DNA from: Candidatus Sumerlaeota bacterium
Lineage (GTDB): Bacteria; CG03; SLGR01
Reading direction: 5' to 3'
Assembly (NCBI GenBank): GCA_007136585.1
Contig: SLGR01000055.1
Location: 1 to 18,175, forward strand
DNA length: 18,175 nucleotides
Translations under genes and position numbers: made by a program
The notes under the pieces: generated by a model
Database searches by the model: none
Told to the model about the DNA's origin: nothing
What the model saw: only the letters and a program-made list of their open reading frames with translations
In this document: positions 1,876 through 15,163 of the stretch, piece after piece
Layout of the letters: each line of letters begins with the position of its first letter
Numbering within the stretch: the stretch's first letter is position 1

Positions 1876-2308
1876 TTTCTTCTATCTCAAAAAGTTCCTG
1901 TCCGTACTGCACAGAGTCGTTATTTTTTATAAGCTTAACGGCAATACGGCCGGAGACCGGAGCAAGTATCTCCTTCATTATTTTCATGGATTCAACCGCT
2001 CCCAGAACCTCTCCTTTATCAACCTTCTGCCCGGACCTCACTGATGCTTTCCTGCTGGGCGGGACCACATCCCGGTATATCCCGACCGAATGGGAATAGA
2101 CTGTTACTTTTTTCTTTTCACCGCTTTCTTCAGGGCCCCGGGCCTGTTCCTTCCCGGGTTCAGCAGCAGCCGTTTCCTCTTTATTATCCGGCATCCTGAC
2201 AACTAAAATATTATTGCTTCCCGAAGCGTACTCTATCTCCTGAATATCGGTATCCTTCATAGCGGAAGCAAGCTCTTTTATCTTTTTTTCAGCATCCTTA
2301 AATCTCAT
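1868..2308 (-). CDS. accB: Biotin carboxyl carrier protein of acetyl-CoA carboxylase
   Basis: AccB (146 aa) carries the covalently bound biotin that shuttles CO2 from AccC to the carboxyltransferase. The N-terminal segment (about 1-40) is a short helical region, the middle (about 45-70) is an acidic, Ala/Glu-rich linker typical of AccB, and the C-terminal 75 residues form the biotinyl/lipoyl domain. The biotinylation site reads AVESMKIMKEI, so the target lysine is present but the common AMKM context is SMKI here, a mild variant. KVDKGEVLGAVE and APVSGRIAVKLIKNNDSVQYGQEL are standard for the fold. The ATG overlaps the efp stop as ATGA and has a good GAGGG ribosome site 7 nt upstream. The gene directly precedes accC, the usual arrangement. 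Confidence 0.95.
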   Translation of the reverse strand: MRFKDAEKKIKELASAMKDTDIQEIEYASGSNNILVVRMPDNKEETAAAEPGKEQARGPEESGEKKKVTVYSHSVGIYRDVVPPSRKASVRSGQKVDKGEVLGAVESMKIMKEILAPVSGRIAVKLIKNNDSVQYGQELFEIEESV

Positions 2309-2865
2309 GAATCTGCCCTCGAAATATACTCTCCCGTCCTTGTATCTACAATCACTTTTTCCCCCTGCTCTATGAAAAGCGGAACATCCACCTCAAGACC
2401 GGTCTCAAGCTTAACCTTCTTTGTAGCACCGCTTACCGTGTTTCCTTTAACCCCCGGGGCTGCCTGGGTCACTTCCATAACAATTTTGGGAGGAAACTCC
2501 ACATCAAGTATCTCGGTTCCGTACATTATGAGGTCTGCTTCGTTCCCCTCTATCAGATACTCTTTTTTATCTCCTATAAGAGTGGAATGAACGTTCAACT
2601 GGGAGAAATCACCCGTATCCATAAAAACAAAAGATTCCCCGTCTCTGTAGAGAAACTGCATTGTCTTTTTTTCAACTATAGCCTGGGTTACCTTTTCCGT
2701 GGCCCTGAAAGTTTTCTCAACTATCTGCCCAGTGCTTACATTCTTTGCCTTAACCTTCATATAGGCGCCGCCTTTGCCGGGTTTATGATGCTGAAACCAG
2801 ACCACGCTGCATACCGAACCGTCCAGGAGAAGGTAGATCTTGTTGCTTATTTTATTTACGGGGAT
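2305..2865 (-). CDS. efp: Translation elongation factor P; no canonical start codon
   Basis: EF-P binds ribosomes stalled at proline runs and helps peptide bond formation. The three OB-type domains are recognisable: KPGKGGAY in domain I, MQFLYRDGESFVFMDT in domain II and a C-terminal GNTVSGATKKVKLETG...TRTGEYISRA domain. The first usable ATG/GTG/TTG in frame is GTG at 2805, which would cut about 20 residues off domain I (166 aa). The frame stays open upstream to TGA at 2914-2916, and residues encoded there (NKISNKIYLLLDGSVCSVV) align with the EF-P N-terminus spacing for spacing (N, 12 residues to the DG pair, then VV before FQH). A start at ATC 2863-2865 gives 186 aa, the usual family length, so I annotate that. 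The tip lysine (K31 in that numbering) is present; no EpmA/EpmB-type modification gene is visible. The stop overlaps accB by 4 nt. Confidence 0.85.
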   Translation of the reverse strand: MPVNKISNKIYLLLDGSVCSVVWFQHHKPGKGGAYMKVKAKNVSTGQIVEKTFRATEKVTQAIVEKKTMQFLYRDGESFVFMDTGDFSQLNVHSTLIGDKKEYLIEGNEADLIMYGTEILDVEFPPKIVMEVTQAAPGVKGNTVSGATKKVKLETGLEVDVPLFIEQGEKVIVDTRTGEYISRADS

Positions 2866-3893
2866 TGTCTGGTTAACTGTTCGCTCCCTTCCGAAGTTAT
2901 AAGATACGTATCCTCAAGCCGCATCCCTCCTGCCCCGCGGATATATATCCCGGGCTCAACCGTAACAACCATTGATTCCTTAAGCACAGTGCGGGATTCC
3001 GGAACAAGCCGGGGCCCTTCATGAACATCAAGTCCCACCCCGTGCCCGAGCCCGTGAGTAAAATATTTCTCAAAACCGTAACGCTTAAGCACGCCCCGGA
3101 CCGCGGAATCAATATCGGAACATACGGCCCCCGGACGAAGTTTTTTTTCCCCGGCAGCCTTGGCCTCGCCAAGTATTCCGAGAAGGTTTTCCGAATCAAA
3201 ATTACTAACAAATTTAGACAAAATAAGCGTTCTTGTCAAGTCACTGCAGTATCCTTTGTATCTTATCCCGTAATCAATTTTCAGCCACCCGAAGCCTATT
3301 ATATCGTCTGAAGGCATATGGTGGGGCCTGGCTGAGTTTTTACCGGAAGCAACCACGGGAGTAAAAGAGCATCCGGAAAACCCGTCCTGCCAGGCCTTCA
3401 TCTGCAGGTACCCGGCAAGCTCCGCTTCAGTTTTCCCCATCCACCTGCCGGGTTCCACAGATTCAACTATCTCCGCAGCCTTCCGGCAGGCCCGCCTTAT
3501 CAGCTCAATCTCACCGGGCTCTTTTACGGACCGCATCTCCGAAACAAACCCGGCCTGTTCGCCTCCCAGGGAAGTTAATTTACTGAAATTCTCGCAGGAA
3601 AGAAGCTCGGCTTCAAAAAAAAACCTGCGGCGGCCTATAAACTCCTTAAGCTCCTCCGGCCACCCCCCCTTGAACCTGCGGCACTCCACAGCTTCTGAAG
3701 ATGTTTCAAGGGCCTGAGTAAAGTTTACAGGAGGGCTGAAAAGGATACTTCTCTCTGAATCCACAAAAAGGACCCCGCCGCTCTGGGAGGCGGTCAGGTA
3801 GTATATGGAAGAGCTGTCAAGTATTACACCGGCCTCAAACCCCCCGGCGGAGGCCCTTTTTATCAGTCTATCTATCCTTGCTTTTTCATTCAC
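2856..3893 (-). CDS. pepQ: M24 family aminopeptidase (Xaa-Pro aminopeptidase/dipeptidase-like)
   Basis: A cytosolic metallopeptidase of the pita-bread (M24B) family, which removes N-terminal residues preceding proline or splits Xaa-Pro dipeptides. The N-terminal creatinase-like domain (about 1-125) is followed by the catalytic domain with all five metal ligands: Asp in KIDYGIRYKGYCSDLTRT (two Asp), His in THGLGHGVGLDVHEGP, Glu in VTVEPGIYI and Glu in GMRLEDTYLIT. About 345 aa, normal for the PepQ/YpdF/YqhT group. I chose GTG at 3893, which has GAGG about 9 nt upstream and overlaps the aroQ stop by 8 nt; a TTG at 3908 is possible but lacks a ribosome site. Adjacency to efp is common in many bacteria, and both genes deal with proline-containing sequences. 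Exact substrate (aminopeptidase or dipeptidase) is not decided by sequence alone. Confidence 0.88.
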   Translation of the reverse strand: MNEKARIDRLIKRASAGGFEAGVILDSSSIYYLTASQSGGVLFVDSERSILFSPPVNFTQALETSSEAVECRRFKGGWPEELKEFIGRRRFFFEAELLSCENFSKLTSLGGEQAGFVSEMRSVKEPGEIELIRRACRKAAEIVESVEPGRWMGKTEAELAGYLQMKAWQDGFSGCSFTPVVASGKNSARPHHMPSDDIIGFGWLKIDYGIRYKGYCSDLTRTLILSKFVSNFDSENLLGILGEAKAAGEKKLRPGAVCSDIDSAVRGVLKRYGFEKYFTHGLGHGVGLDVHEGPRLVPESRTVLKESMVVTVEPGIYIRGAGGMRLEDTYLITSEGSEQLTRQSP

Positions 3894-4311
3894 CTGCCGC
3901 CGCCTCAAGCGCCATAATATAACTCTTTGAACCGAAGCCGCATATAACTCCTTCAGCCGCGGGGGCCGTCACCGAACGTCGCCTCGCCTCGTCCCGGCCC
4001 AGAATATTGCTCATATGCACTTCTATAACCCTGCCCCGGAAAGCCTTCAGCGCATCCAGGAGGGATATACTGGTATGGGTAAGTCCGGCCGGGTTTATTA
4101 TTATCGTTCCGGCATCAGAAGATGATATGCGGTCTATTATAGCTCCTTCGTGGTTTGACTGGAAAAACTCCGCCGCCACATTGAGTTCTCCGGCTTTTTC
4201 ACGTATTCGGCTGTTTATATCATCCAGTGTCTCAGTCCCGTATATCTCAGGTTCGCGGGTTCCCAGCGTATCCATATTAGGCCCGTGAATCACAAGTATT
4301 TTAGCGCTCAT
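3886..4311 (-). CDS. aroQ: Type II 3-dehydroquinate dehydratase
   Basis: AroQ dehydrates 3-dehydroquinate to 3-dehydroshikimate, step three of the shikimate pathway. At 141 aa it has the size of the small dodecameric type II enzyme. Seen: [19 protein letters not shown] (the catalytic Arg and Tyr lie in REPEIY), [48 protein letters not shown] with the catalytic His, and GVICGFG. It differs mildly from the common forms: GPNLNLLG reads GPNMDTLG and GAYTHTS reads AGLTHTS; the catalytic residues remain. The ATG has GGGAGG 8 nt upstream and overlaps the slipin stop by 11 nt. AroB, which makes its substrate, is encoded upstream in the same run, separated by nfeD and the slipin gene. Confidence 0.95.
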
Positions 4312-13294: not shown

Positions 13295-14539
13295 CTAAAA
13301 CCTGCTGTCAACCGTATCAGAGCGGTTATCTTCAAAAGTATTCCCGCTCTGCTCGGGGCGGGAGTATTCCGAAATAAGCAGAGCGAACCTGTTTGCCCTG
13401 AAGGTATTCCCCGTTATAACCGGGGCAGAGCGGCCCTCAACCCTGGTTCCGTACTCATTCTCAAAGATACTGTTGGCCGTTATCTCCGGAGAAGAGTTTC
13501 CCGTTACCACGATTGCCGGACCGCTGCCGGTAAAATTATTTTCCGTTACAGAACCCGAGGCCCTCTCGCCGAAACTGGCCCCGGCGCCGTTTGCGCTGAA
13601 AAAATTTCCCCGTACCTCGGGTGAAGATTCGTCTACCGCCAGAATACCAACTATATTAGAGTGAAAATAATTATCGTTAATAAGGGGCGAGGACTCGTTC
13701 CAGCACCCCACCCCGGAGCCGTTTCCCGCCACGGTGCTCTTATATATTACCGGGGAGGACTCATTTCCGGAGGCTATGCCCACATTATTCCCCGAAACTT
13801 CCGAGCCGGATATCCTTCCTGCGCTTAACCCTTCAAAGAACACGCCCGCGGCGGAGTTATTGCGGACCACGCTTTCTTTTATAACAGGCGAGGCATATCC
13901 CGAAGCTCCTATACCGTACTTGGTGTTTTCAATCAATGCCCCGGCTATTGTGGGGGAGGCCCTGTCCCAGCACCCCACCCCGCCTGCCTCGGTATCTGTT
14001 ACCGTTAACCCGGTAATATCAGGGGACCGGAAATCATAGAGCCTTACACCTATATAACCGCCTTTAACCATAAGGTTCGCTATGGAAGAGTTTCCCTGGT
14101 TTCCTATAAAATTTATCCCTCCGGCCCGGGACGGGTCTCCGGAAGGAGCCTGCAGTACTACGGGGTTCTCCGGGGTTCCGCTGATATCAAGGTCCCCGGC
14201 AACAATTATCTCTATCCTTGACTCGCTGAAGAGGTCGTAAGTTCTTCCTTCCGAACTCCTCAGGTGCTGTATCTCGCTTTTTATTCTCCCGCCGGTATAA
14301 CGGATAAGAGTTCCGGGAAGTACGGTAAGTTTGACTCCCGGCTCAACATATATATCCCCCTCAAGAAGAACGCGACCCTGCCATATGGTATCGGAGCTTA
14401 TCCGGCCGTGAAACCTCTCACCCCTGAAACACCCGGAGAACAGTAAAGCGGTTAAGATAAGAAAAGCAGCGAAAAACCCTGCTCCTGAACCGGGTCTTCC
14501 GTATATATATTTAAAGCGGAAAGAAGATATATCTTCCAT
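13295..14539 (-). CDS. Right-handed parallel beta-helix lipoprotein
   Basis: About 414 aa. A basic N-terminus and hydrophobic helix end in LTALLFSGC, a plausible lipobox (Phe at -3 is unusual), so the protein is probably lipid-anchored in the envelope. It continues with a right-handed parallel beta-helix: after an IWQGRVLLEGDIYVEPGVKLTVLPGTLIRYTGG cap (pectate-lyase-like/PbH1 entry), about ten rungs of 22-24 residues follow, most ending in SSP or ASP plus Ile/Val and rich in Asn and Gly (for example SSPLINDNYFHSNIVGILAVDE). This is a NosD/CASH-like fold used for carbohydrate binding or processing, and no catalytic residues can be named. I prefer ATG at 14539; a TTG at 14566 is possible. AAGGAGG lies 14 nt upstream of the ATG, farther than usual. 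It is the first gene after the promoter at 14589-14618. Confidence 0.8.
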   Translation of the reverse strand: MEDISSFRFKYIYGRPGSGAGFFAAFLILTALLFSGCFRGERFHGRISSDTIWQGRVLLEGDIYVEPGVKLTVLPGTLIRYTGGRIKSEIQHLRSSEGRTYDLFSESRIEIIVAGDLDISGTPENPVVLQAPSGDPSRAGGINFIGNQGNSSIANLMVKGGYIGVRLYDFRSPDITGLTVTDTEAGGVGCWDRASPTIAGALIENTKYGIGASGYASPVIKESVVRNNSAAGVFFEGLSAGRISGSEVSGNNVGIASGNESSPVIYKSTVAGNGSGVGCWNESSPLINDNYFHSNIVGILAVDESSPEVRGNFFSANGAGASFGERASGSVTENNFTGSGPAIVVTGNSSPEITANSIFENEYGTRVEGRSAPVITGNTFRANRFALLISEYSRPEQSGNTFEDNRSDTVDSRF

Positions 14540-14588
14540 ATATTCTACTCTGGCCTCCTTCGGCAACTATAACCCTGCGGCAAAGTAA

Positions 14589-14618
14589 AATATACCATAA
14601 CCTCAGTTATATTTTCAA
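14589..14618 (-). promoter_or_regulatory. Sigma70-type promoter upstream of the lipoprotein-nadK-recN-aro run
   Basis: On the minus strand, -35 TTGAAA (14613-14618) and -10 TATATT (14589-14594), each 5/6 to consensus, are separated by 18 nt; the -10 is preceded by TGG, giving an extended -10. The -35 overlaps the rsmD stop. Start of transcription would fall near 14582, about 40 nt before the lipoprotein ATG. Confidence 0.6.
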
Positions 14619-15163
14619 GCGGTATCCTTAACGAAAAAATCCAGGGCTGTGATACCGTAAACCCTGGAATCTATTTTACGGTACCCGGAATTATCCACAT
14701 CTTCTTTTCTGTGGTGCTGGATCACAACCAGGTTATCCTCTGACGCGATCCCGGCCTCCAGGCAGTGTCTTAATATACCGGACGAAAGATTACCCCTGTA
14801 CGGGGGGCCGGCAAATATTATATCAGGAGAGATACCGGAGGGATAGAACCCGAAGACATCGGACTCATATACCTCTATGCGGTCACGCAGACCCAGCTTA
14901 TCCGCATTCCTGTATATAAGCCCCAGGGACCGGGGATCCTTCTCTACCATAACCGCCCGCGAAGCTCCGCGGGAGAGGGCTTCAAATGAAACGTTTCCGG
15001 TCCCGGCAAACAGATCAAGGAAAAGAGAACCGGGGACTCTGGCGGAAATTATAGAGAAAAGAGACTCCTTGATACGCCCGGAAAGGGGCCTCAGCGATTT
15101 TCCCGGAAGAGACTCAAGTTTCCTGTTTTTAAAATCCCCTGCCGTAATCCTGAGTTCTGTCAA
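14615..15163 (-). CDS. rsmD: 16S rRNA (guanine(966)-N(2))-methyltransferase RsmD
   Basis: Methylates G966 (E. coli numbering) of 16S rRNA in the small subunit, using SAM. 182 aa, normal. The N-terminus ITAGDFKNRKLESLPGKSLRPLSGRIKESLFSII is the RsmD hallmark, then the SAM-binding LFLDLFAGTGNVSFEALSRGA, the acidic motif VMVEKDPRSL and the catalytic motif. That last motif reads DIIFAGPPYRG, whereas the family has (D/N)PPY: the Asp/Asn is Gly here (codon GGC, one base from GAC). The start is TTG with a strong GAGGGG 6 nt upstream. A promoter-like site overlaps its end. What the change does to activity is unknown. Confidence 0.9.
   Translation of the reverse strand: MTELRITAGDFKNRKLESLPGKSLRPLSGRIKESLFSIISARVPGSLFLDLFAGTGNVSFEALSRGASRAVMVEKDPRSLGLIYRNADKLGLRDRIEVYESDVFGFYPSGISPDIIFAGPPYRGNLSSGILRHCLEAGIASEDNLVVIQHHRKEDVDNSGYRKIDSRVYGITALDFFVKDTA

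Follow-up and report, generated by a model that had tools for sequence, protein, structure and literature searches.

The efp gene in an order of Candidatus Sumerlaeota lacks a canonical start codon and is probably initiated at AUU or GUU within the overlapping pepP gene

To our knowledge, very few genes are conserved with start codons of the AUH class, the textbook case being infC. Papers cited in PMC5472188 describe for this gene, which encodes IF3, an AUU start with autocontrol in Escherichia coli and an ATC start in Streptomyces. Streptomyces sigR has a proven GTC start that is repressed by IF3, and the promoter and ribosome site of rsrA are internal to the upstream sigR (PMC5472188). We analysed efp, the gene of EF-P, in an 18,175-nt stretch of DNA from a Candidatus Sumerlaeota bacterium (contig SLGR01000055.1; hereafter the window), where it overlaps the end of pepP, a gene of the Xaa-Pro peptidase family. 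From the comparison with related genomes, we consider it likely that transcription of efp begins at least partly within pepP and that ribosomes start de novo at AUU, or at GUU in the window, probably under limitation by IF3. The literature searched, which took in few subscription journals, contained no report of a non-canonical start of efp.

On the minus strand of the window, the efp frame (2305–2913) is open downstream of a TGA at 2914–2916 and ends with the stop codon at 2305–2307. The proposed coding sequence (2305–2877) comprises 190 codons from GTT, followed by TGA. Its product scored 225.6 bits against NCBIfam TIGR00038 (cut-off 185.8), with positions 3–184 of the 184-position profile aligned, and matched PF08207, PF01132 and PF09285 (KOW-like, OB and C-terminal OB domains), each above the gathering score. 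The HHKPGKG motif, which includes the modifiable lysine, is present in 5/5 aligned EF-P orthologs, and EF-P is conserved at 65–70% identity, with intact domains. A structure model of the product had a pLDDT of 90.6 and adopted the EF-P fold, and EF-P structures of the PDB matched it with query-normalised TM-scores of 0.82–0.89 (top seven). The first ten residues of this model had a mean pLDDT of 92 and included a strand at residues 3–6. As judged from these features, efp, which is found once in the genome of the window, is a functional, single-copy EF-P gene. The first ATG, GTG or TTG (NTG) within the frame is the GTG at 2803–2805, which would lose the N-terminal strands and is not conserved as a start. 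The earlier note had claimed that efp is without any such start codon; this was confirmed in the window, and the positions given there for ATC (2863–2865), ATA (2848–2850), GTA (2857–2859), GTT (2875–2877) and GGGAG (2884–2888) were all correct.

Comparison with relatives, as suggested in that note, covered seven other genomes of the order. The 5′ end of efp was readable in five of them (G001, G002, G003, G005 and G006), and G004 and G007 yielded no efp. Together with the window, the readable relatives represent four families, and all are metagenome assemblies. As in the window, efp has no NTG start in any of the five, and the first NTG occurs at codon 14, 18, 25 or 40, depending on the genome. 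In G003, it comes at codon 40 and thus past the KPGKG loop, so that no canonical start could give a working EF-P there. Internal NTG codons were therefore rejected as the efp start, their position not being conserved and their use being fatal in G003. Outside the order, an NTG was found within 0–2 codons of one alignment column in 25/25 EF-P genes of further lineages, among them the sister family f5, where efp starts with ATG. This canonical column corresponds to codon 4 of the proposed gene, which is ACA (2866–2868, minus strand) in the window and varies across the six genomes (ACA, GAT, TTA, GTA, GAA or AAA) without ever being a start in the order. Given that five relatives also lack NTG and that 25/25 outside genes have it, its absence is far from chance. 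The proposal that efp truly has a non-AUG start was thus borne out.

The aligned 5′ ends read ATT AAC CAR xxx ATH CCN GTW AAY in the five relatives and GTT AAC CAG ACA ATC CCC GTA AAT in the window. Codon 1 of this alignment, which is GTT (2875–2877, minus strand) in the window and ATT at the aligned place in 5/5 readable relatives, precedes the canonical ATG position by three codons. It is preceded in the window by a Shine-Dalgarno-like AAGGGAG (2884–2890, minus strand), with an aligned spacing of 5–6 nt to GTT and 17–18 nt to ATC, and its counterparts in the relatives are GGAGGT, GGAG, AAGGA, AAGGA and GGAGG. Overall, a Shine-Dalgarno match of 4–6 nt was found in 6/6 genomes at 5–10 nt from codon 1 and 17–22 nt from codon 5, and the near-cognate codon at Shine-Dalgarno distance is ATT in 5/6. 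Moreover, an in-frame stop two or three codons upstream of ATT in G002 and G003 bounds the start there. Codon 5, the ATC at 2863–2865 (minus strand), is ATA in four relatives and ATT in one; its counterpart in ordinary EF-P is Ile2, and it was read as an internal isoleucine. No regulatory RNA hairpin was found at the efp start, the z-scores of −0.2 to 1.2 indicating an unstructured start region. We infer from this conservation that efp is initiated at codon 1, the start most likely being AUU across the order and, departing further from AUG, GUU in the window. The GTT of the window differs from AUG at two bases, so that it is not of the AUH class itself.

The last 22 nt of pepP (2856–3908, minus strand, with the start as mechanically listed and the TAA stop at 2856–2858) overlap efp in the window, and the two genes overlap in all relatives. 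Over the efp start, pepP encodes Leu-Thr in the +1 frame with TTAACC (2871–2876, minus strand), and the same codons are used in 6/6 genomes. The leucine is TTA throughout, although TTA accounts for 4.6–34% of Leu codons (frequency product 2.9e-6 for six genomes, with lineages assumed independent), and the threonine is always ACC. This is set against a diverged PepP, which in the relatives has 40–49% identity to that of the window. Among 36 fully conserved PepP columns of four- or sixfold degeneracy, the same codon is used across the six genomes in only six; two of these lie over the efp start and four within the promoter motif described below. Codon 1 of efp takes its first base from the wobble position of a PepP codon and the other two from the start of the Leu codon. 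An NTG is barred at this place, since a G in the third position would turn the PepP codon into TGN (Cys, Trp or stop), which would read TGA given the A that follows. The PepP leucine thus leaves AUU as the only single-mismatch start. The A of ATT is the wobble base of a PepP codon in five genomes and a rare choice in three, where the codon supplying it has a frequency of 9.6% (G003), 16% (G002) and 4.2% (G001). In the window, the corresponding PepP codon, CAG, which makes up 92% of Gln codons of the genome, ends in G, so that the efp start reads GTT. The conservation of ATT is partly forced by PepP coding, as its last T is fixed by the leucine; the codon-frequency products, here and for the promoter motif below, serve to tell such coding constraint apart from conservation of the signal itself. 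The PepP constraint leaves unexplained why the lineage lacks the ATG at codon 4 that is present in the sister family, so that selection for a weak efp start is possible.

Inside pepP, a promoter was predicted at 3211–3239 (minus strand), comprising TTGACA (3239–3234), a spacer of 17 nt and TAAATT (3216–3211). The motif is found exactly 362 nt upstream of efp codon 1 in 6/6 genomes, and its spacer holds TTTTG or TATTG. The four single-codon PepP columns within it are TTG, ACA, AGA and then TTG, in the D-L-T-R-T region, which we take to be that of the PepP metal site. Leu TTG, as found in the motif, makes up 2.8–12.5% of Leu codons, and the frequency product, which again covers six genomes and treats lineages as independent, is 2.2e-7. 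Across 1.6 million strand-bases of the order, TTGACA-17-TAAATT occurs at eight sites, six of which are those in pepP. The motif has −35 and −10 hexamers within the 16–18-nt spacing of sigma-70-type promoters and is conserved beyond coding constraint, although it overlaps the conserved D-L-T-R-T stretch, so that amino-acid conservation contributes. Most pepP genes of the sister family have TTGACG-17-TAAYAT at the same alignment place, as read by eye from the codons. Conservation of the motif thus supports a sigma-70-type promoter within pepP, whose activity we infer. Transcripts from such a promoter would include efp and accB-accC but not the start of pepP. On these, efp would have to be initiated independently, which speaks against coupling as the sole route. 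Of note, the efp stop and the accB start share ATGA (window 2305–2308), and this overlap makes it probable that accB-accC are on the efp transcript.

A start at the isoleucine codon four codons downstream of codon 1 (ATC 2863–2865 in the window, ATA or ATT in relatives) would yield an EF-P of the canonical 186 residues and was the choice of the earlier note. Codon 5 is ATH in 6/6 genomes, adjoins the canonical ATG position and belongs to the same class as the ATA and ATC starts of infC in the order, and the ATC of the window, with one difference from AUG, is nearer to it than GTT. However, the Shine-Dalgarno spacing to codon 5 is 17–22 nt, and the upstream ATT/GTT column is well spaced in 6/6 genomes. 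The third base of codon 5 is A, C or T and never G, though a single change would give ATG, which fits an internal isoleucine. A start there would moreover cut the first predicted strand and leave the rare upstream TTA unexplained, and we regard it as quite improbable. Sequencing or assembly error, or decay of the gene, would account for the unusual codon otherwise, and the assembly of the window is indeed a fragmented metagenome (257 contigs, 88% complete) in which GTT differs from ATT by a single base. As the missing NTG is common to five other, independent assemblies, the base error that the earlier note had raised as its cause was ruled out. With EF-P being single-copy and conserved in sequence and domains as described above, error or decay is very hard to credit as a whole.

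Were efp translated only by termination-reinitiation after pepP, coupling and not IF3 would set its level, as could be expected from the pepP-efp overlap of the window and all relatives. Against this, a conserved promoter in pepP would give transcripts without the pepP start, and a separate Shine-Dalgarno site precedes efp in each genome. We consider exclusive coupling unlikely; as it could operate at the same start codon, this grading does not compete with that of the main explanation, and coupling to pepP could add to the EF-P level. A PepP-EF-P fusion would instead result from programmed −1 frameshifting near the pepP stop, and the two frames do overlap in the right relative phase for it. 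The ribosomal E site would not accommodate such a fusion. Furthermore, a slippery heptamer and a conserved structure are absent at the pepP end, and the efp-frame stops just upstream of ATT in G002 and G003 leave few codons for the shift, so that frameshifting is scarcely believable. Returning to de novo initiation at AUU or GUU, the sigma-70-type promoter within pepP would drive efp, at least in part, and ribosomes would start through Shine-Dalgarno pairing and fMet-tRNA with no need for pepP translation. With such a poor start codon, little EF-P would be made, and its synthesis would respond to IF3, as is the case for infC.

IF3 probably limits the translation of efp, judging by its handling of such codons in E. 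coli and Streptomyces, as reported in literature cited in PMC5472188. A match to infC was found in 8/8 genomes of the order searched, although in G000 it was no more than a fragment at a contig edge. Six genomes of the order have no NTG start in infC, which reads ATA in five (L154, L155, L156, L157 and L159) and ATC in one (L158), these starts being preceded by AGGAGG-like Shine-Dalgarno sites; in the sister family f5, infC starts with GTG or TTG. The AUA and AUC starts of infC in the same order render a link between efp and IF3 more plausible. More tentatively, IF3 may control both its own synthesis (infC, AUA/AUC) and that of EF-P (efp, AUU/GUU), with the overlapping peptidase gene holding AUU in place and the internal promoter uncoupling efp, a scheme that we hold to be plausible rather than probable. 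The two genes found with non-NTG starts kept across the order are efp and infC.

Start codons elsewhere were surveyed by coding potential in parts of three genomes, an approach that misses genes with another NTG shortly after the true start. Among 258, 192 and 79 genes, 6, 9 and 0, respectively, were flagged at the final threshold; most of the flagged genes have a regular ATG close by, and in G003 efp ranked first. Sampled starts of G003, as assigned by the best ribosome site, were 195 ATG, 24 GTG and 15 TTG. A clade-wide relaxation of start choice was therefore rejected, as sampled genes start ordinarily and flagged exceptions are few. Among individual cases, rsmD of G003 (L185, minus strand, frame 542–1106) has no NTG before codon 37, and an ATA aligns with the TTG start of the window. 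Several relatives have ordinary NTG starts, so that this exception is not conserved, and it would be an oddity of a single genome or a sequence error. In G001, a gene that resembles the YlmD/PgeF family by eye (L208, minus strand, frame 14116–14782) has an apparent GTT or ATA start and no NTG for 45 codons. In the same genome, the frame of a large, signal-peptide-like product (L189, minus strand, frame 16412–19244) opens with CTG immediately behind a stop codon, and 90 codons pass without an NTG.

If the proposed start is correct, efp would be a second translation factor gene with an AUH-class start, across four families, which would widen the set of genes under fidelity control by IF3. EF-P, which relieves stalled peptide bonds, would then be tied to initiation fidelity. 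The locus also illustrates how the coding needs of one gene can keep NTG out of the start codon of another that overlaps it. In practice, gene finders restricted to NTG will truncate or drop efp here, with loss of the first strand or even of the modified loop.

Compared with known systems, efp of this order resembles canonical bacterial efp in encoding a three-domain protein with the KPGKG loop. Unlike the canonical gene, in which the NTG is at codon 4 of the frame, its protein would begin three codons earlier, at ATT or GTT, and sequences such as V-N-K-I-S-N-K replace the canonical N-D-F-R-x-G motif. As in infC, a gene for part of the translation machinery has an AUH start downstream of a Shine-Dalgarno site; unlike in infC, the start lies inside an upstream gene, and control by IF3 is presumed. 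The closest parallel to the codon of the window is sigR, in which a non-NTG codon beginning with G (GTC, against GTT here) likewise follows a Shine-Dalgarno site and is conserved within a clade, whereas sigR encodes a sigma factor and has a longer Shine-Dalgarno sequence (AGGAGGTG) than the 4–6 nt found here. Finally, the location of both the promoter motif and the ribosome site of efp inside the upstream gene is shared with rsrA (PMC5472188).
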